Shown piece by piece: positions 25,143 through 35,555 of a DNA stretch of 64,000 nucleotides. The position numbers and the translations under genes were made by a program. How positions within the stretch are numbered: position 1 is the first letter of the stretch; each line of letters opens with the position of its first letter. Location of the stretch: positions 992,001 to 1,056,000 of the forward strand of contig NZ_VTOU01000002.1 of assembly GCF_008274695.1 (NCBI RefSeq). The letters run 5' to 3'. The notes under the pieces were generated by a model that was given only the letters and a program-made list of their open reading frames with translations, made no database searches and had not been told where the DNA came from. Source of the stretch: Sphingomonas montanisoli (GTDB taxonomy: Bacteria; Pseudomonadota; Alphaproteobacteria; Sphingomonadales; Sphingomonadaceae).

Positions 25143-25517
25143 TTAAGCCGGGATCAGCCCCAGCACCTGATCGCCTAGGCCGATCGGATCGAAAGGTTTG
25201 GTGATGACGCCCTTGGCGCCCTGCGCGATATAATCGTCGATGTCCTGCGGCCGCGCGCGCGCCGTTACGAAGATGACGGGCAAGTCGGCGGTGTCGGGAT
25301 TGGCTTTCAGCCGCGCCAGCACGTCCGGCCCGGTCAGCCCCGGCATCATCACGTCGATCATCGCAAGATCGGGGCGCCATCCTTCGTCGATCAGGATCGC
25401 CAGCGCCTGTTCGCCCGATTCCGCCGTGCGGACGTCCAGGCCGGGCTTCAGCTTCAACGACATCTCGACGATCAGCCGGATGTCCGGTTCGTCGTCGACA
25501 TAAAGGATCGATGTCAT
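25143..25517 (-). CDS. single-domain response regulator
   Basis: The 124-residue CheY-like receiver has acidic residues D8-D9, the phospho-acceptor D55 in LAMIDVMMPG, Thr in IFVTARA and Lys in GVITKPFDP. It has no output domain. Its ATG overlaps the stop of the hybrid kinase gene (ATGA), so it is the last gene of a three-gene operon and probably a phosphorelay partner of that kinase. Confidence 0.92.
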   Translation of the reverse strand: MTSILYVDDEPDIRLIVEMSLKLKPGLDVRTAESGEQALAILIDEGWRPDLAMIDVMMPGLTGPDVLARLKANPDTADLPVIFVTARARPQDIDDYIAQGAKGVITKPFDPIGLGDQVLGLIPA

Positions 25518-28006
25518 GCGGCCTCCCTCCGCTTTTCCAATATCTCGTTCACCGCGGCCACCAGATCGGGCAGCGATCGGCGCGATTTGACGAGGACAGC
25601 GTCGACATTGCCGCGCACGCGATCGTCGACGTCCTGCGCGGTATAGACGACGATCGGCAGGCTATTCCCGGCCCCATCGACGAGCTTGGGCAGCATGCTG
25701 GCGCCGTTGCCGTCGGGAAGGCCGAGGTCGAGCACGACCAGATCGGGCGGATAACGTTCGAGCAGCCCGGTCGCCTCGTCGATGCTGTGCGCGGTGATGA
25801 CGCGGCCATGCCCGGCCATCGCACGGACGAACAGTTCGCGGGTATCGCCATCGTCGTCGACGTGCAGGACCAGCGGCAGATCGCGGCCCGCCCGGTCGAG
25901 CGCACGTTCGACCGCGTGGATCAGACGATTGGTGTCGAAGGGCTTGCGCAGCCAGTCGATGATCTCTGCGCTCGGAATATCCTCGACCTCGCGGCTCGGC
26001 GGCGCGCCGGAGATGACGATGACGGGCTGGCGGCGCGTCCCATCATTCGGCCCGGTATGAAGCGCGCGCAGCACGTCGGCGCCGTCGGAATCTGACAGGG
26101 TCATGTCGAGCAGGATGACGTCATAGCGATAGTTGCGCGCCAGGCTAGCGGCCTCCTGCACGCTGGGCGCCAGATCGCTGTCATAGCCCTTGCTGGCCAG
26201 CATCGTGCGCACCGTTTCGCCGACATCGGCATCGTCCTCGCACACGAGGATGCGGTAGAAACGGTTGCGTGCGCGATCGGCCGGATTGGCGAGATAGGGG
26301 ACCGAGAAGCCGAAGCACGCGCCTGCACCCTCGACGTTCTCGAACCAGATTTCGCCGCCGTGCGTGTGGACGATTTCCCGCGAGATGGCGAGGCCGAGGC
26401 CGGTGCCCGCGATCATCTTCGCCTCAGGCTGTGCGCCCTGGGCGAAGCGGCCGAAGATGTGGGGTGCGAATTCGGGCGCGATGCCCGGCCCCTTGTCGGT
26501 GATCCGGACGACATAGCGGTCTGTCTCGTCGACGATCTCGATGTCGATCGTCGATCCGTCGGGCGAATATTTGATCGCGTTGGATAACAGGTTGGTCGTG
26601 ACCTGGATGAGCCGCTCCACATCGGCGTGCACCATCGCCGGCGCATCGGTCAGATGCTGCGCGATGTCGATCTGCTTACGATCGGCCAGGCCGTTCATCG
26701 CCTGGGTGGCGCGGATCGCGACATCGCGCAGATCGATCGTCACCTGATCGAAGGCGAGCTTGCCGGTGCGCAGTTGATCGATGTCGAGGATGTCGTTGAT
26801 CAGCCGGATCAGCCGCTGGCAATTGTTCTCCGCGATCTCCGCAAGCCGTTGGGCAGGGGGCGGCAGATCGCCCGCCGCGCCGCCGCGCAGCAGGCTGAGC
26901 GAGCCGAGCACCGAGGTCAGCGGTGTACGCAGTTCGTGGCTGACGGTCGATATGAACTCGTCCTTCAGCCGCTCGACCTGCTTGCGGGCCGATGCGTCGC
27001 GGAGGGCGGCGACGATGTGGACCCCGTCGGGCAGCGGCATGACGCTCAGCACGACATCGAGCGCGATCGTGTTGCCGTTAGCGCAATGCCCCACCAGATC
27101 CATCCGCGCAGGATGGTCGAGCGTGCCCTCGCGATAGCCGACCCGGTCCAGGAAACTGCCTTCGCCGGGCGCCAGTTCGACCAGCGTCGATATGTCGCGG
27201 CGCAGGAGGTTTTCGGTGCGATAGCCGAAGATCGTTTCCGCTGCCGGATTGATCGTCTCGATACTGCCGCTGGGATTGATCAGGATGATCGCGTCGCTGA
27301 CGCTGTTGAAGATCGCGTGCTGGCGCGCGGCGGCATCGGCGGCGTCGAGCGCGAGTTCGTTGCGCAGGCGCCGATTCTGCCCGAACATATAGCCGGCGAT
27401 GGCGACGATTGCCGCGATGATCGCGATCGCCAGCCAGATCAGCTGTTGCGTTGCGCTCGTGCGCTCGGCATTTTTGCGCACATTGGCTTCCAGCAGCCGG
27501 CTTTCGTCCGCGATGAGCTTAGCGACCCGTGTTCGGATATCGTCCATCAGCCGCTTGCCGGCGCCTTCGGACAGCCGGTCGCGCGCGATCGTGAAGCCCT
27601 GGCGGTCGCGCAGTTCTATCACCTCTTGCATCTCGGCGAGTTTGACCTGGATCAGCGCCGCGAGCTGGCGCTCCTCCGCCCTGCCTTCGCTGTGCGGATT
27701 GCTGCGTTCCATGCGCGCGACCACTCCGGGCAGTCGAGCTCGGGCGTCCTCATATGGCTTCAGGAAACTGCGGTTGCCGCTGATGATATAGCCGCGCTGC
27801 CCGGTCTCGGCGTCCTGCACGAGCGAGAAGAGCTGCTCGATATCGCGGCGATGCTCGTAGGACTGGCGCGTCAGGATGCGCCCATCCTCCGCGCGGCCAT
27901 ATTCGCCGCCCAGCCACACCGCCATCATCGCCAGGATCATCGGCCCGAGGGCAGCGAGTGCGAAAATCTGAAGCCAACTCGGACGGATCTGTCGGCGTCT
28001 CCTCAC
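25514..28006 (-). CDS. CHASE3-PAS hybrid histidine kinase with two receivers
   Basis: The 830-residue membrane kinase has a membrane segment near residues 12-32, a CHASE3 extracellular domain (DAETGQRGYIISGNRSFLKPYE), a second membrane segment near 187-208, a PAS domain (AIFNSVSDAIILINPSGSIETINPAAETIFGY), HisKA (FISTVSHELRTPL) and HATPase (NLLSNAIKYS, DKGPGIAPE, GTGLGLAI). Two receivers follow, with acceptors in LLDMTLSD and VLDLGLPDG. No HPt domain is present; the divergent gene at 28726 supplies one. The start is GTG at 28006 overlapping the stop of the LuxR-type regulator. Confidence 0.93.
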   Translation of the reverse strand: MRRRRQIRPSWLQIFALAALGPMILAMMAVWLGGEYGRAEDGRILTRQSYEHRRDIEQLFSLVQDAETGQRGYIISGNRSFLKPYEDARARLPGVVARMERSNPHSEGRAEERQLAALIQVKLAEMQEVIELRDRQGFTIARDRLSEGAGKRLMDDIRTRVAKLIADESRLLEANVRKNAERTSATQQLIWLAIAIIAAIVAIAGYMFGQNRRLRNELALDAADAAARQHAIFNSVSDAIILINPSGSIETINPAAETIFGYRTENLLRRDISTLVELAPGEGSFLDRVGYREGTLDHPARMDLVGHCANGNTIALDVVLSVMPLPDGVHIVAALRDASARKQVERLKDEFISTVSHELRTPLTSVLGSLSLLRGGAAGDLPPPAQRLAEIAENNCQRLIRLINDILDIDQLRTGKLAFDQVTIDLRDVAIRATQAMNGLADRKQIDIAQHLTDAPAMVHADVERLIQVTTNLLSNAIKYSPDGSTIDIEIVDETDRYVVRITDKGPGIAPEFAPHIFGRFAQGAQPEAKMIAGTGLGLAISREIVHTHGGEIWFENVEGAGACFGFSVPYLANPADRARNRFYRILVCEDDADVGETVRTMLASKGYDSDLAPSVQEAASLARNYRYDVILLDMTLSDSDGADVLRALHTGPNDGTRRQPVIVISGAPPSREVEDIPSAEIIDWLRKPFDTNRLIHAVERALDRAGRDLPLVLHVDDDGDTRELFVRAMAGHGRVITAHSIDEATGLLERYPPDLVVLDLGLPDGNGASMLPKLVDGAGNSLPIVVYTAQDVDDRVRGNVDAVLVKSRRSLPDLVAAVNEILEKRREAA

Positions 28007-28635
28007 GGCATGGCGCCTGTCAGGGGGCGGACCATCAATATGGCCTGGGTGCGATTGGTGACGCCCAGCTTGCGGAAGATCGCGGACAGATGCGCCTTGA
28101 TCGTCGCCTCGGTGACGCCAAGTTCCGCCGCGATCTGCTTGTTCAGGTCGCCATGCGCCAGCGCCATCAGCACGCGGCGCTGCGCGTTGGACAGGCTGTC
28201 GATCCGCTTGCGAAGCTGCTCGGCCTCGTCGGCGCCGTCGTCGACGGGCGGGAAGAAGCTTCCCCCACGCAGCACCATGCTGATCGCGGCGACGATGGCG
28301 TCCAGCGGCTGGCGCTTCGATATGAAGCCCGATGCGCCCACGGCGCGCGCGGCAGACAGGATTTGCTTGCTGTCATGCGCCGAGATGATCGCGATCGGTA
28401 CGCGGCCGAGCAGATGCTGTAATTTGAAGAAGCCGTTGAAGCCGTTGCTGTCGGGCAGCTCGTAATCGAGCAGAAGCAGCCGGTAATCATTGTGCTGCTG
28501 GATCAGGACTTCGGCGTCGGCGATCGATCCGGCGACGTCCACGACATAGCCCGGCTGATGCACACGGAGCGCTATCTGAATTCCTTCGTTGATCAGCGGG
28601 TGATCGTCGGCGATCAGGATGCGTCCAAGTGTCAC
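28003..28635 (-). CDS. LuxR/NarL-family response regulator
   Basis: The 210-residue regulator has an N-terminal receiver (ILIADDHPL; acceptor D57 in LLLLDYELPD; Lys in GFISKRQPL) and a C-terminal LuxR helix-turn-helix (LSNAQRRVLMALAHGDLNKQIAAELGVTEATIKAHLSAIFRKLGV). The GTG at 28635 starts exactly at the receiver; the open frame continues upstream without domain content. It heads an operon with the hybrid kinase and single receiver and is the only DNA-binding output of the set. Confidence 0.88.
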   Translation of the reverse strand: MTLGRILIADDHPLINEGIQIALRVHQPGYVVDVAGSIADAEVLIQQHNDYRLLLLDYELPDSNGFNGFFKLQHLLGRVPIAIISAHDSKQILSAARAVGASGFISKRQPLDAIVAAISMVLRGGSFFPPVDDGADEAEQLRKRIDSLSNAQRRVLMALAHGDLNKQIAAELGVTEATIKAHLSAIFRKLGVTNRTQAILMVRPLTGAMP

Positions 28636-28676
28636 GTTTTGCTCGTCTCTGATTGCGCGTCGGAGGCATCTTATGG

Positions 28677-28700
28677 ATACCGCCCCACGGGGCGTAGTAT
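28677..28700. promoter_or_regulatory. inverted repeat in the divergent two-component promoter region
   Basis: ATAC (28677-28680) with GTAT (28697-28700) bracket the perfect inner palindrome GCCCC-AC-GGGGC (28682-28693). It lies between the LuxR-type regulator start (28635) and the receiver-HPt start (28726). It is a candidate binding site for the LuxR-type regulator. Confidence 0.35.
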
Positions 28701-28725
28701 AAGTTAACAGGAAGGTTCTTGGCCC

Positions 28726-29394
28726 ATGCCAACGTCCGAGGAAAACTCCGTAATACTCCTTGTGGACGATGAACCCGCTTACGCGCAGATCATGTCGGCG
28801 CTCGCGCTTTCCATGGGCCATCGTCTGGAACATGTGGCCAGCGCCGCCGATCTGGACGAGCGGCTCGATGCCAAGGACTATGCGTTGATCCTGATGGACG
28901 TGGAAATGCCGGGGATCGACGGCTACGCGGCGACGGCGGCGATCCGATCGCGCGGCGGCTGGGCGACGGAGGTGCCGATCATCGCCTTCACGACGCTCGG
29001 CAAGTCACGCGACACCGATCGCTTCGTGGCGGCCGGGATGGACGGGGTCCTCGCCAAGCCGTTCGGGATCGTCGAATCTGCGGCCACGTTGCGGCAATGG
29101 CTGCACGACGGAAAGGCGCCGAAGAAAACCCGTCAGACGTTGGAGGCGCTGTTGGGTGCCGAACAGGCGGCCAGCATGTTCGATCGCTTCTACATCTCGC
29201 TCGAAGAGGCCGTCGAACTGGTCGACGCAGGGGGCGACAAGGCGCGGATCGGGCACAAGATCGGTGGTCTCGCGGGCACCCTGGGCCTCAGCGTTCTCAG
29301 CGCGGGCTGGCTGGCGCTGCAGGATGGGGCGGACCATGCCTGGCCAACGGTGCGCGCTTTGTCCCGCGACGCGATTGCGCGCCACACCGGTTAG
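28726..29394 (+). CDS. receiver-HPt fusion protein
   Basis: The 222-residue protein has an N-terminal receiver (ILLVDDEPAYAQ; acceptor D58 in LILMDVEMPGIDGYAA; IAFTTLG; Lys in GVLAKPFG) and a C-terminal helical domain with the HPt signature around H177 (IGHKIGGLAGTLGLSVLSAGW). It can receive a phosphoryl group on D58 and carry one on H177, the missing step between the hybrid kinase and final receivers encoded divergently. There is no DNA-binding domain. Confidence 0.82.
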   Translation: MPTSEENSVILLVDDEPAYAQIMSALALSMGHRLEHVASAADLDERLDAKDYALILMDVEMPGIDGYAATAAIRSRGGWATEVPIIAFTTLGKSRDTDRFVAAGMDGVLAKPFGIVESAATLRQWLHDGKAPKKTRQTLEALLGAEQAASMFDRFYISLEEAVELVDAGGDKARIGHKIGGLAGTLGLSVLSAGWLALQDGADHAWPTVRALSRDAIARHTG

Positions 29395-29522
29395 TTAATA
29401 TGACATTTTTGTTACAGACATCCGGGCGCGAATCGCCTAGGGGCTGAGCCGCCAGAGAGGGAATCATCATCCGCCAGATCGCTGCCTTACCCTACCGAAT
29501 CGGGACTGACGGACGGGCTGAG

Positions 29523-30581
29523 GTGTTGCTGATCACGTCGAGAGAGACGCGCCGGTGGATCATTCCGAAGGGCAACAAAATGCGCGGCTATGCCCCTCAC
29601 GAGGCGGCGGCGCAGGAAGCCTATGAAGAGGCAGGCGTCCGGGGAATCCCGTGTCCCACGGCGTTGGGAGCCTTTGTTTATTTGAAACGGCGGCGAAATG
29701 GTGCAGATCGGCACACGACCGTCGACGTCTTTCCGCTCAAATTTCTGTTCCAGGCAGACGACTGGCCCGAACGTAACCAAAGAGAAATACGGTGGTTCGC
29801 GCTTGACGAAGCCGCCGCCGCAGTGGACGAGCCAGATCTCAAGACGCTGATCGCCACCTTCCGGATACCGCCACCCACGCCGGGTGTCGCTCAGCGGATG
29901 GTGCCGGTCGTGCGATCACGTTTGAGCGAGGTGATCCCGATGCTGCGCTGGTTCCAGGCACTCATGCCGTCCCAGGGTCGTTTTTTCGAACAGTTTGAAT
30001 CGCATTCGGCGCTGCTGGTCGCAGGCGCGGAGGCTCTCGCGCAGCTGCTGCAGGGCGACGACATCGCCACGCATATCCGCACGATCGTCGATCGCGAGCA
30101 TGATGCGGACGAGATCACCCGCGACGTCCTGATGGACGTGCGCCGGATCTTCGTGACGCCGTTCGATCGCAGCGCGATCACCGGACTGATCGGCGTCATG
30201 GACGACGCGATCGACCAGATGAACAAGACCGCCAAGGCGATCGAACTTTACGAGGTCACCAGCTTTGAACCGCAGATGCGCGACATGAGCGGCATCATCG
30301 TCGAAGCCGCGCGTATCACCGCGGAGGCGATCCCACTGCTGCGCTCCATCGGATCGAACGGCGCGCGGCTCCATTCGCTGACCGAACGGCTGATCAAGAT
30401 CGAAGGCGATGCCGACGATATCCACGATGCCGGCATCAAGGCGCTGTTCAAGGCCAGCGAAGGCAGCGATGCGTTGCGCTTCGTCGTGGGCCGCGAAATT
30501 TACAGCCATCTGGAGCGCATCGTCGACAGGTTCGAGGATGTCGCCAACGAGATCCAGGGTCTCGTCATCGATCACGCATAA
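29523..30581 (+). CDS. Nudix (DIPP-like)-DUF47 (PhoU-like) fusion protein
   Basis: The N-terminal 115 or so residues are a Nudix domain whose order (EVLLITS, RRWIIPKG, then EEAGV) matches diphosphoinositol polyphosphate phosphohydrolases. In the Nudix box the catalytic EExG is kept, but the first Glu is Tyr and the Arg of REU is Gln. From about residue 140 the protein is DUF47, a PhoU-like helical bundle (MLRWFQALMPSQGRFFEQFESHS, DREHDADEITR). There is no stop between the two. The PiT gene follows by 12 bp. The GTG at 29523 is the first canonical start, but coding sequence for an earlier Nudix strand (IRQIAALPYR) extends to 29466-29469; translation may begin at an ATC there, after GAGAGGG. 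Confidence 0.8.
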   Translation: MLLITSRETRRWIIPKGNKMRGYAPHEAAAQEAYEEAGVRGIPCPTALGAFVYLKRRRNGADRHTTVDVFPLKFLFQADDWPERNQREIRWFALDEAAAAVDEPDLKTLIATFRIPPPTPGVAQRMVPVVRSRLSEVIPMLRWFQALMPSQGRFFEQFESHSALLVAGAEALAQLLQGDDIATHIRTIVDREHDADEITRDVLMDVRRIFVTPFDRSAITGLIGVMDDAIDQMNKTAKAIELYEVTSFEPQMRDMSGIIVEAARITAEAIPLLRSIGSNGARLHSLTERLIKIEGDADDIHDAGIKALFKASEGSDALRFVVGREIYSHLERIVDRFEDVANEIQGLVIDHA

Positions 30582-30593
30582 GGGATCAGGGAC

Positions 30594-31592
30594 ATGATGA
30601 TTTCCCTGACTGCGCTCTATGCGCTGATCGCGATCGCGCTGCTGTTCGATTTCCTGAACGGGCTGCACGACGCGGCCAATTCGATCGCAACGATCGTGTC
30701 GACGCGCGTGCTCAAGCCGCAATATGCGGTGCTGTGGGCGGCCTTCTTCAACTTCATCGCCTTCCTGTTCTTCGGCCTTCACGTCGCGCAGACGGTGGGC
30801 AAGGGGATCGTCGTCGCTGAAATCGTCGATGCCTATGTGATCTTCGGCGCGCTGATGGGCGCGATCATCTGGAATGTCATCACCTGGGTGCTGGGTATCC
30901 CGTCGTCGTCCAGCCACGCGCTGATTGGCGGCCTGCTGGGGGCTGGCGTGGCCAAGGTCGGATCGGCGGCGGTCGTGTGGGGCGGCGTGATCAAGACGGT
31001 GTCGGCGATCGTGATCTCGCCCGCTTTGGGCCTGTCGCTCGCGCTGCTGCTGGTGCTGATCGTCGCGTGGACGACGTTGGGCATGACCCCGCTCGCGGTC
31101 GACAAAAGGTTCCGCAAGCTCCAGCTCGTCTCGGCGTCGCTCTACTCGCTCGGCCATGGTGGCAACGATGCGCAGAAGACGATGGGGATCATCACCGTGC
31201 TGCTCTACTCTCAGGGCATGCTCAGCGGCGATTTCAACGTGCCCTTCTGGGTCGTGATCTCGTGCCAGGCGGCGATGGGGCTCGGCACGCTCGCGGGCGG
31301 ATGGAAGATCGTCCACACGATGGGGTCGAAGATCACGCGGCTCACCCCCGCGCAGGGCTTCTGCGCGGAGACGGGTGGCGCGATCACCCTGTTCGGCTTT
31401 ACCTGGCTGGGCATTCCGGTGTCGACCACGCACACGATCACCGGCGCCATCGTCGGCGTGGGCGCGGCGCGGCGGCTGTCGGCGGTCCGCTGGAACGTCG
31501 CGAGCAGCATCGTCGTGGCGTGGGTCGTGACGCTGCCGGCAGCGGGGCTGATCGCCGCCGCATTTTACTGGCTTGCGAAACTCGTCTTCTGA
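30594..31592 (+). CDS. PiT-family inorganic phosphate transporter
   Basis: This 332-residue inner-membrane carrier imports phosphate, often as a metal-phosphate complex. It has the two inverted PiT repeats: FDFLNGLHDAANSIATIVSTR near the N-terminus and SLGHGGNDAQKTMGII in the second half, plus GIPSSSSHALIGGLLGAG and GIPVSTTHTITGAIVGVG. DUF47 genes are classically paired with PiT genes and are thought to regulate them; here the partner also carries a Nudix domain. Confidence 0.95.
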   Translation: MMISLTALYALIAIALLFDFLNGLHDAANSIATIVSTRVLKPQYAVLWAAFFNFIAFLFFGLHVAQTVGKGIVVAEIVDAYVIFGALMGAIIWNVITWVLGIPSSSSHALIGGLLGAGVAKVGSAAVVWGGVIKTVSAIVISPALGLSLALLLVLIVAWTTLGMTPLAVDKRFRKLQLVSASLYSLGHGGNDAQKTMGIITVLLYSQGMLSGDFNVPFWVVISCQAAMGLGTLAGGWKIVHTMGSKITRLTPAQGFCAETGGAITLFGFTWLGIPVSTTHTITGAIVGVGAARRLSAVRWNVASSIVVAWVVTLPAAGLIAAAFYWLAKLVF

Positions 31593-33920: not shown

Positions 33921-35555
33921 TCAGCGCTTGCAGCTGTCCGCCGCACTCGCATCGAGATCTAGGCAGCGGCCGTCGATCTCGGGCGTCGTTACGGGCAAGC
34001 CGATCAGCGCGGCGAGCGTCGGCAGGATGTCGACCGTCTCGATCGGGTTCGGCTGTTCGAAGCCATGCGCGTTGGGCCACCAGAACAGGATCGGCACGCG
34101 ACGGTCATAGTCCCACGGGCTGCCATGCGTCGCGACCGAACCGCGCGCCGGATCGGGGATCGGCGTGACGTTGGGCTTGAGCAGGACGATCAGGTCGCCC
34201 GAGCGGCCGGGATGATAGCTCGCCGCCGCGCGATCGAGCAGGCTCCATTCGGTTACGGGCATCGTCGTCGGTTTGTAGCCCACGAAATCCTCGGCGGTGA
34301 AGACCGCGCCGACCTGCGGATCGGCCGACAGCCGCGTCTTGGTCGCTTCGATCGCGCGCTTGCGGTCGCGGTCGGACAGGCCCTTGGAGATGTAGAAGTC
34401 GCCGAAGCTGCCGCCGCCATAGACAGTCACGCCGTCGAGCTTGAGCGCCTGCGTGATCGCGGCATCGACGACCTTGGGCGCCTTGTCCGGATCGACCCGC
34501 ATGTCCGACGGCAGGCCGTGGATGCGGTTGCGCTCGGGCAGGTCATGCCCGCCATGATCGGCGGTCAGCACGACGACATACGGGATCTTTGCGGCATTGA
34601 GCTTGGTGAAGAAGGTGCCGAGGATCTGATCGACCAGCATTACCTGACCGCAGCTTTCCGGGCCTTCGGTGCCGAAGGTGTGGCCGACTGCGTCGGTGGC
34701 GGAAAGGCCGATCGACAGCACGTCGGGCGCCTCGCCACGGCCCAGCTTCATCTCGTCGACCAGCGCGGAGGCTAGGTCGATCGTCGACTGATCATATTCG
34801 GGCGAAACGCGCCACGCGCCCTTGTCGCCCGCCTTGCGCGCCGGGATCGGCACGCCCACGGCCTTGTTCGGCGACACCGGCACCGCCGACACGCGCGTCT
34901 GGCAGATCGGGGGCAGGACGTAGGGCTTGCCGGCGCGGGCGAGCTGCGCGGCGATGCGCGCATTCGCGGCCTTCACCGCCGGGGTTTGGGCCTTGCCGAC
35001 GAAGCTGGCGAAATGATCCTTGTCCCACCACCACATCTGATCGGCATTGTGCCCGCCCATCATCAGCGCGGCGCGATCCTTGCCCGCGACCGAAACGACG
35101 CGCGAAGCCGGATTGGCGGCCTTCATGCGATCGCCCAGCGTCGGCATCAGCAGGTGGACCGGCGAGACGGTATAGTGGTCCGAGCTCGATCCGGGGACGG
35201 TCTCGTCCTCCGAACAGTAGATCGTCTTGTCGGCGCGCGCGACGGACAGGTCCATCCAGTCGTTCGCGATGATGCCGGTCTTCGCGGGGTGCGCGCCGGT
35301 CAGGATCGTCGAGTGGCCGGGGCAGGTCTCGGTCGCCGCATGGCTCTGATAGCCCGAGGGGAAGACCACGCCCTGCGTCAGCGTCTTGAGGCCGCCCGTA
35401 TAATATTGGCGATATTCGCTGAAAAGATCGGCCGAAAACTGGTCGACCGAGACGGCGACGATCAGCTTGGGCGTGGGCGGCGGGACGGTTGCGGGCGTCG
35501 CCGCGAGGGCCGGGGTGGCGATCGTGGCGAGCAACGCGCCGAGCAGCTTCTTCAT
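33921..35555 (-). CDS. phoK: PhoK-type alkaline phosphatase
   Basis: The 544-residue exported phosphomonoesterase belongs to the nucleotide pyrophosphatase-like alkaline phosphatases described from Sphingomonas (PhoK). It has a signal peptide (LLATIATPALAA), metal ligand Asp in VAVSVDQF, the Thr nucleophile in the ATETCPGHST stretch (Thr77), the GLSATDAVGHTFG loop, LTADHGGHDLPE and late His residues in SVATHGSPWDYDRRVPILFW. It releases phosphate outside the cytoplasm. The phosphate uptake genes are about 3 kb away. Confidence 0.85.
   Translation of the reverse strand: MKKLLGALLATIATPALAATPATVPPPTPKLIVAVSVDQFSADLFSEYRQYYTGGLKTLTQGVVFPSGYQSHAATETCPGHSTILTGAHPAKTGIIANDWMDLSVARADKTIYCSEDETVPGSSSDHYTVSPVHLLMPTLGDRMKAANPASRVVSVAGKDRAALMMGGHNADQMWWWDKDHFASFVGKAQTPAVKAANARIAAQLARAGKPYVLPPICQTRVSAVPVSPNKAVGVPIPARKAGDKGAWRVSPEYDQSTIDLASALVDEMKLGRGEAPDVLSIGLSATDAVGHTFGTEGPESCGQVMLVDQILGTFFTKLNAAKIPYVVVLTADHGGHDLPERNRIHGLPSDMRVDPDKAPKVVDAAITQALKLDGVTVYGGGSFGDFYISKGLSDRDRKRAIEATKTRLSADPQVGAVFTAEDFVGYKPTTMPVTEWSLLDRAAASYHPGRSGDLIVLLKPNVTPIPDPARGSVATHGSPWDYDRRVPILFWWPNAHGFEQPNPIETVDILPTLAALIGLPVTTPEIDGRCLDLDASAADSCKR

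Follow-up and report, generated by a model that had tools for sequence, protein, structure and literature searches.

What does a Nudix domain do inside a regulator of phosphate transport? This question is raised by one gene of the window (the whole 64,000-nucleotide stretch of Sphingomonas montanisoli DNA that was analysed), which joins Nudix to DUF47 in a single protein and lies directly ahead of a PiT phosphate transporter gene. DUF47 (PF01865) is the PitR family. According to the 2026 PitR study, Staphylococcus aureus PitR is a single-PF01865 protein that restrains PhoPR, its loss raises PhoPR output and the expression of pst and nptA, and the model of the authors couples it to PitA (PMC13170248). 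Across 926 genomes, PitR has pitA as its neighbour in every case but one; as the survey chose single-domain PF01865 proteins only, fusions fell outside it, and the paper does not use the word Nudix (PMC13170248).

We assign a probability of about 0.5 to the reading that the gene belongs to a phosphate-homeostasis unit, in which a PitR-type accessory regulator of PiT carries its own Nudix pyrophosphohydrolase. The computed part of this reading consists of the fusion and its conservation, the intact glutamates, a fold like that of DIPP, DDP1 and MutT1, a recurrent Nudix-PiT neighbourhood, and PHO-box-like sites.

The fusion gene and its start codon

In the window protein, Pfam places NUDIX (PF00293) at residues 14–130 (33.5 bits, cut-off 21.1) and PhoU_div/DUF47 (PF01865) at residues 172–368 (134.7 bits, cut-off 24.4), and the next gene matches PHO4/PiT with 324.1 bits against a cut-off of 33.7 (Table 1). 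The original prediction of a Nudix-DUF47 fusion followed by PiT is thus borne out, with one frame and all three domains above cut-off, and the three motifs that it quoted (EVLLITS, RRWIIPKG and EEAGV) are correct. Only 12 bases separate the fusion gene from the PiT gene, which places the protein next to pit as is usual for PitR. Like S. aureus PitR and Pit accessory proteins such as Streptomyces pap, it contains PF01865 above cut-off, adjoins PiT and has a PhoU-like fold (3l39); it differs from them by the extra N-terminal Nudix domain. The equivalog cut-off of TIGR00153 is not reached (41.5 bits vs 104.3), and the protein falls outside the single-PF01865-domain definition of the PitR survey, since NUDIX is found in the same protein (PMC13170248).

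Table 1 Features of the fusion locus in the window
Feature	Position	Strand	Basis or remark
PHO-box-like site CTGTAAC AAAA ATGTCAT	29400..29417	-	11/14 positions of the consensus; best site upstream
Shine-Dalgarno-like AGAGAGGGA	29454..29462	+	6 nt before ATC at 29469
Nudix-PitR (DUF47) fusion gene	29466..30581	+	Single open frame, both Pfam domains
Probable ATC start codon	29469..29471	+	ATC also at 29463 and 29466; ATG in this column in 27/102 fused loci
Nudix domain, catalytic Glu 51, 54, 55 (numbered from 29466)	29505..29855	+	Pfam, alignment, fold
Met159, fusion joint	29940..29942	+	Aligns with start Met of stand-alone DUF47
PhoU_div/DUF47 (PitR) domain	29979..30569	+	Pfam; PDB 3l39 fold match
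PiT inorganic phosphate transporter	30594..31592	+	Pfam PHO4, 1.2e-96

Between the upstream stop and 29469 the frame contains no ATG, GTG or TTG, ATC being the only candidate (29463, 29466 and 29469). The first canonical start is GTG at 29523, the use of which would remove the first 19 residues. Among the 102 fused loci described below, 45 have ATC (33), ATT (11) or ATA (1) in the start column, without an in-frame ATG, GTG or TTG there or upstream. At these 45 loci a start inside the Nudix domain is possible, but the stretch ahead of it is conserved as protein. Noncanonical starts of infC (ATT; ATC in Streptomyces) and sigR (GTC) are repressed by IF3 (PMC5472188), and the start of the fusion gene is possibly IF3-sensitive as well.

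Directly upstream of the fusion (25514–29394), we have observed genes for a histidine kinase of CHASE3-PAS type, in which there are two receiver stretches, and for two response regulators, one LuxR-type and one receiver-only. The window genome (4.1 Mb) has one DUF47 place, one classical two-domain PhoU frame and one PPK place. The PhoK-like phosphatase that had been pointed out downstream is a real gene (33921–35555, minus strand) but is not conserved at fused loci: in 80 loci, with flanks of up to 5 kb and some shorter, there is one strong match (L060) and one weak match (L084). It has therefore been rejected as a part of the unit.

Conservation of the fusion

A search for Nudix-DUF47 fusions and their neighbours, as the original prediction had proposed, gives 102 loci at which a single frame encodes both domains, the window's own included. 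PiT is next to the fusion in 101 of them, and the remaining locus (L065) lies at a contig end. The whole fusion occurs in 19 of the 147 genomes of the window's order, its own included; six genomes of this order have a close DUF47 without the Nudix part. All 80 loci kept from a collection of named genomes (the best 80 of 482 confirmed, picked by similarity) are fused, and the named relatives in that search are sphingomonads. This conservation excludes a chance fusion. A sequencing error that removed a stop codon is rejected as well, as the 102 fused loci come from many assemblies; separate neighbouring genes do exist elsewhere (G188, Methylobacterium nodulans and Agrobacterium larrymoorei). The fusion joint is even visible, since the stand-alone DUF47 proteins of relatives start with MFxWFQ, MLGWFQ or MMGWFR, in alignment with Met159.

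In a Nudix tree of 82 rows, computed from 134 columns by a quick method that left 40 of the 79 inner branches open, the 26 fused rows correspond to one state change, with an SH-aLRT support of 94. The nine unfused rows linked to DUF47-PiT are scattered in the same tree and need nine changes, that is, as many as shuffled labels.

Three loci, L112, L113 and L114 (in G184, G311 and G407, respectively), carry the full fusion outside the window's order. In the tree, L112 and L113 are placed among members of the window's family, so transfer may have taken place. On the other side, six DUF47-PiT loci of the window's family (L021–L026) are without the Nudix part, and L021 shows 70% identity in DUF47, which suggests domain loss.

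Unfused Nudix relatives beside PiT

Using the window protein as query, we have found an unfused Nudix relative in 37 of 289 genomes of the class. PiT is present in 28 of the 37, and the two genes are at most 2 kb apart in 21 of the 28; this figure rests on the window protein alone as query, not on profile A2, and three weak Nudix-region hits (G151, G266, G294), none among the 90 PiT-bearing genomes, were removed before the count. When the genomes from the profile search are added, there are 126 Nudix places in 95 alphaproteobacterial genomes, and of the 70 genomes that also have PiT, 46 show the link (at most 2 kb), though the profile search may favour linked relatives since A2 was built mainly from PiT-linked rows. 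The rest comprise 25 genomes without a detected PiT and 24 with an unlinked one.

The 49 linked places show four orientations: Nudix then PiT (29), PiT then Nudix (8), convergent (8) and divergent (4). The linked genomes span 20 group codes of family rank by hand count, and two types of PiT are involved: the short type (~330–340 codons) comes with DUF47, and the long type has ~500 codons. PF01865 was searched for in 37 of the 46 linked genomes; it is present in 7, and 30 give no match (in the other nine, DUF47 was seen beside PiT by tblastn, or the genome was left out as being of that type). This rejects the explanation that the Nudix gene merely rides along with DUF47, and indicates that Nudix is paired with PiT even in genomes that lack PitR.

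Two controls support the specificity of the neighbourhood. Outside the alphaproteobacteria, 44 pseudomonadotal genomes had a relative, and 43 were searched for PiT (G594 was left out). They hold 45 Nudix places, and in none of the 30 genomes with PiT does a relative lie within 2 kb, the nearest being at 10 kb; many of these assemblies consist of hundreds of contigs, which may hide neighbours, and the relatives are also more distant. Within 12 linked genomes, PF00293 detects 134 Nudix places, and the PiT neighbours make up 10 of them (it missed the linked Nudix of G202 and G355). None of the other 124 is within 2 kb of PiT; they lie at least 14 kb away or on other contigs.

PiT occurs in 90 of the 289 genomes of the class and has a linked Nudix in 25 of the 90 (21 neighbours and 4 fused), so a Nudix partner is one option for PiT, not the rule. 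For the co-occurrence of Nudix and PiT (32 of 41 vs 58 of 248 genomes), a Fisher test that ignores relatedness and genome size gives P = 2.5e-11.

The INTERMEDIATE orders illustrate how the genes are arranged. In G188, Nudix, DUF47 and PiT are collinear as in the fusion and remain separate genes, with 17 bases between Nudix and DUF47, and in G655 and G667 DUF47 stands between a Nudix and a short PiT. Plasmid pMNOD02 of M. nodulans has the order DUF47-PiT-NUDIX. In A. larrymoorei NUDIX is divergent from DUF47-PiT, with a 14/14 PHO-box-like site in between. In Lichenicola cladoniae NUDIX adjoins a DUF47 that is annotated in two pieces, and in Niveispirillum the Nudix is divergent from DUF47-PiT by tblastn, where the record has no annotated feature. 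Nudix matches in Ruegeria, Ensifer sp. PDNC004 and Acidisoma plasmids have no adjacent PiT.

Some further loci deserve a record. G664 (C10, C15) and G667 (C54, C56) have two PiT genes each, every one with its own Nudix within 2 kb, and G261 has two PiT domains in one open frame of 1123 codons (G261:C119:17531-20449). In G328, a Nudix relative joined to a histidine phosphatase, which is the MutT1 architecture (L173:6034-7029), is separated by 2.7 kb from a DUF47-PiT pair. The interval contains a metallophosphoesterase gene and one open frame without Pfam match. Six unfused Nudix relatives were compared with NCBIfam, and all of them stay below the curated cut-offs. PADLOC gave no match for the fusion or for one unfused relative, and a defence function has been rejected on this ground.

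PHO-box-like sites and a possible housekeeping role

The PHO box has the consensus CTGTCAT-N4-CTGTCAT. We scored upstream regions by matches out of the 14 positions of this consensus, with the expectation taken from first-order shuffles. A score of at least 11 is reached by 26 of the 102 fused upstream regions vs 0.6% of shuffles, and a score of at least 10 by 41 of 102 vs 6.6%. The other 61 fused loci score 9 or less, and about a dozen have a TGTAAC-N5-TGTCA-like variant. Elsewhere, sites of at least 11 are found upstream of 2 of 9 Nudix genes and 3 of 8 DUF47 genes at DUF47-type loci and of 2 of 28 unlinked Nudix genes, and at none of 12 Nudix genes in operons with the long PiT and none of 7 convergent pairs. 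Together with the single tree group of the fused rows and the 46 of 70 genomes with an unfused Nudix beside PiT, these sites strengthen the proposed connection with phosphate.

The same sites would also fit if the Nudix were a housekeeping pyrophosphohydrolase that supplies phosphate or clears nucleotides, having a locus or a PHO box in common with PiT and no part in its regulation. The 24 of 70 genomes in which both genes are present and unlinked agree with this. So does the closest precedent that we have found, a nine-gene Streptomyces cluster (pap-pitH1, pstSCAB, pptA, nudA and ppk), where a Nudix gene is near a pap-pit pair and the authors think of assimilation, storage or degradation of phosphate stores; it belongs to another phylum, its Nudix is unfused, and in the available part of the paper nudA is not tied to Pit (PMC7866108). 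A covalent fusion to a PiT regulator, kept across many sphingomonads, and the pairing with two PiT types in four orientations speak against it, and we regard the housekeeping role as rather unlikely.

As to the literature, the matches listed in a full-text search, which covered neither subscription papers nor preprints, include no paper on a Nudix-DUF47 fusion or on an alphaproteobacterial Nudix-PiT link. PMC12210691 was discarded, as its match is to DUF4743, another family, and a table of PMC8269224 has DUF47, named there as Pit accessory protein, in one row and a NUDIX gene in another. The Nudix-PiT link of the alphaproteobacteria is, to this extent, new here and little-noticed, and it suggests a polyphosphate-type molecule tied to phosphate uptake.

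Catalytic residues: cleavage or binding

As had been predicted, the Nudix box of the window departs from the full GX5EX7REUXEEXGU pattern: Tyr replaces the first Glu and Gln replaces the Arg, and E51, E54 and E55 are kept. These three glutamates occur without exception in the 102 fused rows; 22 region-repeating loci were removed before this count, and rows of well-sampled groups (f29, f167) are not independent. In the same rows the first Glu position mostly holds Leu (77) or Met (15), with Tyr in 3, and the Arg position is taken by Gln in 32 rows, Leu in 27, His in 18, Val in 8, Ile in 4 and other residues in the rest. Among 37 unfused rows, Glu51 is found in 37, Glu54 in 35, Glu55 in 37 and the box Arg in 15. 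The Lys of the PKG motif is invariant in both sets (102/102 and 37/37). Two rows with Nudix and histidine phosphatase (L138, L180) belong to neither set.

In the alignment, the catalytic Glu residues of yeast DDP1 line up with Glu51, Glu54 and Glu55, and its Lys63 with the PKG Lys. The DDP1 study reports that Glu80 and Glu84 bind Mg, that the Glu80 and Glu83 mutants (E80Q, E83A) are inactive or nearly so, and that Lys63, which is present in MutT1 and missing in human DIPPs, contacts the phosphates of inositide, dinucleotide and polyphosphate ligands (PMC8064635). There, Arg79 forms a triad with Glu80 and Glu83, and Arg32 and Arg171 are also essential for phosphate binding (PMC8064635). Since the equivalent of Arg79 is replaced in the window protein, the activity could be low.

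It had been suggested that the domain might bind more than cleave. Nudix-derived sensors do exist elsewhere, such as NrtR and TRPM2, and a non-catalytic domain that switches PitR upon nucleotide or polyphosphate binding would fit a box without the first Glu and the Arg, and a fusion to a regulator domain. We nevertheless consider such a sensor unlikely, because the glutamate triad is invariant throughout the fused rows, and unfused relatives likewise show variation at the two lost positions. The triad makes hydrolysis likelier than binding alone. Judged from residues, a working pyrophosphohydrolase for a polyphosphate-chain ligand is favoured, and among candidate ligands ApnA or polyphosphate would fit best, with inositol pyrophosphate unproven.

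Structure and the comparison with DIPP, DDP1 and MutT1

The AlphaFold2 model (63 rows) has a mean pLDDT of 88.1 and a pTM of 0.86. Segments 134–156 and 158–168 are below 50, that is, the linker at the fusion joint is poorly ordered. The DUF47 half matches PDB 3l39 (Z 30.1, rmsd 1.6, 205 aligned) and has the PhoU-like fold. Its acidic pairs E210/D214, D245/D249 and E312/D316, which we take to be ExxxD motifs, are invariant in the 63 rows; so is D353, and D357 is nearly so.

The Nudix half has a DIPP-type fold that is not exclusive to DIPP. It matches DIPP3 (3mcf_B; Z 18.3, rmsd 2.0, 117 aligned), human DIPP1 (6wof; Z 17.4, rmsd 2.1, 120 aligned), DDP1 (Z 17.2, rmsd 3.9, 131 aligned) and MutT1 (6m6y; Z 17.1, rmsd 2.7, 134 aligned), where rows within Z 1 of each other are ties. 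With human DIPP1 and DIPP3 and yeast DDP1, the window protein has the Nudix fold, the Glu triad and an RW(I/V)P stretch in common, whereas its first box Glu and box Arg are replaced and it is fused to PitR. It has PKG as in DDP1, where the human DIPPs have PGG. Mycobacterial MutT1 shares the fold and the PKG Lys, but consists of Nudix plus histidine phosphatase, and no domain of the latter kind was found by Pfam in the window protein (NUDIX and PhoU_div only). The predicted likeness to DIPP is therefore upheld by profile and by fold, and the model does match DIPP1; DIPP itself is not singled out, since DDP1 and MutT1 match about equally and the PKG Lys is a DDP1/MutT1 feature absent from human DIPPs. 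A strict DIPP reading, in which the domain is a bacterial inositol-pyrophosphate phosphatase, is very improbable. In sequence, DIPP1, DIPP3 and DDP1 are indeed the closest solved relatives of the domain, and they are also among its top fold matches; MutT1 and the Ap6A/Ap4A hydrolases, however, come close to them by fold.

A possible phosphate-homeostasis unit

In the phosphate-homeostasis unit that we prefer, PhoB would control the operon, and at the membrane the PitR domain would work together with PiT. The Nudix domain would cleave a polyphosphate-chain molecule, most likely a diadenosine polyphosphate or a short inorganic polyphosphate, whose level would report the phosphate or energy state. 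This cleavage might tune the action of PitR on PiT and, via PhoR, the Pho response, and the fusion would let the reaction act at the PiT-PitR site. In genomes without PitR, a separate Nudix would serve PiT alone. An inefficient ATC or ATT start may keep the regulator scarce.

A broader idea is possible, and we put it forward tentatively, with the odds against it: the alphaproteobacterial Nudix may be a dedicated enzyme that erases or reads a second messenger with a polyphosphate chain, by which PiT import is set. It would replace PitR in many genomes and be fused to it in sphingomonads, and would so provide a bacterial counterpart of the inositol-pyrophosphate control of phosphate transport. 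In the PitR study, a phosphate-sufficiency signal is placed between the sensing of import and the sensing of a cytoplasmic signal (PMC13170248). A Nudix coupled to PitR and PiT offers a defined enzyme, and its substrate would name a candidate for this signal. As the same Nudix-PiT pairing is found in 20 group codes of family rank, it can be tested in several hosts.
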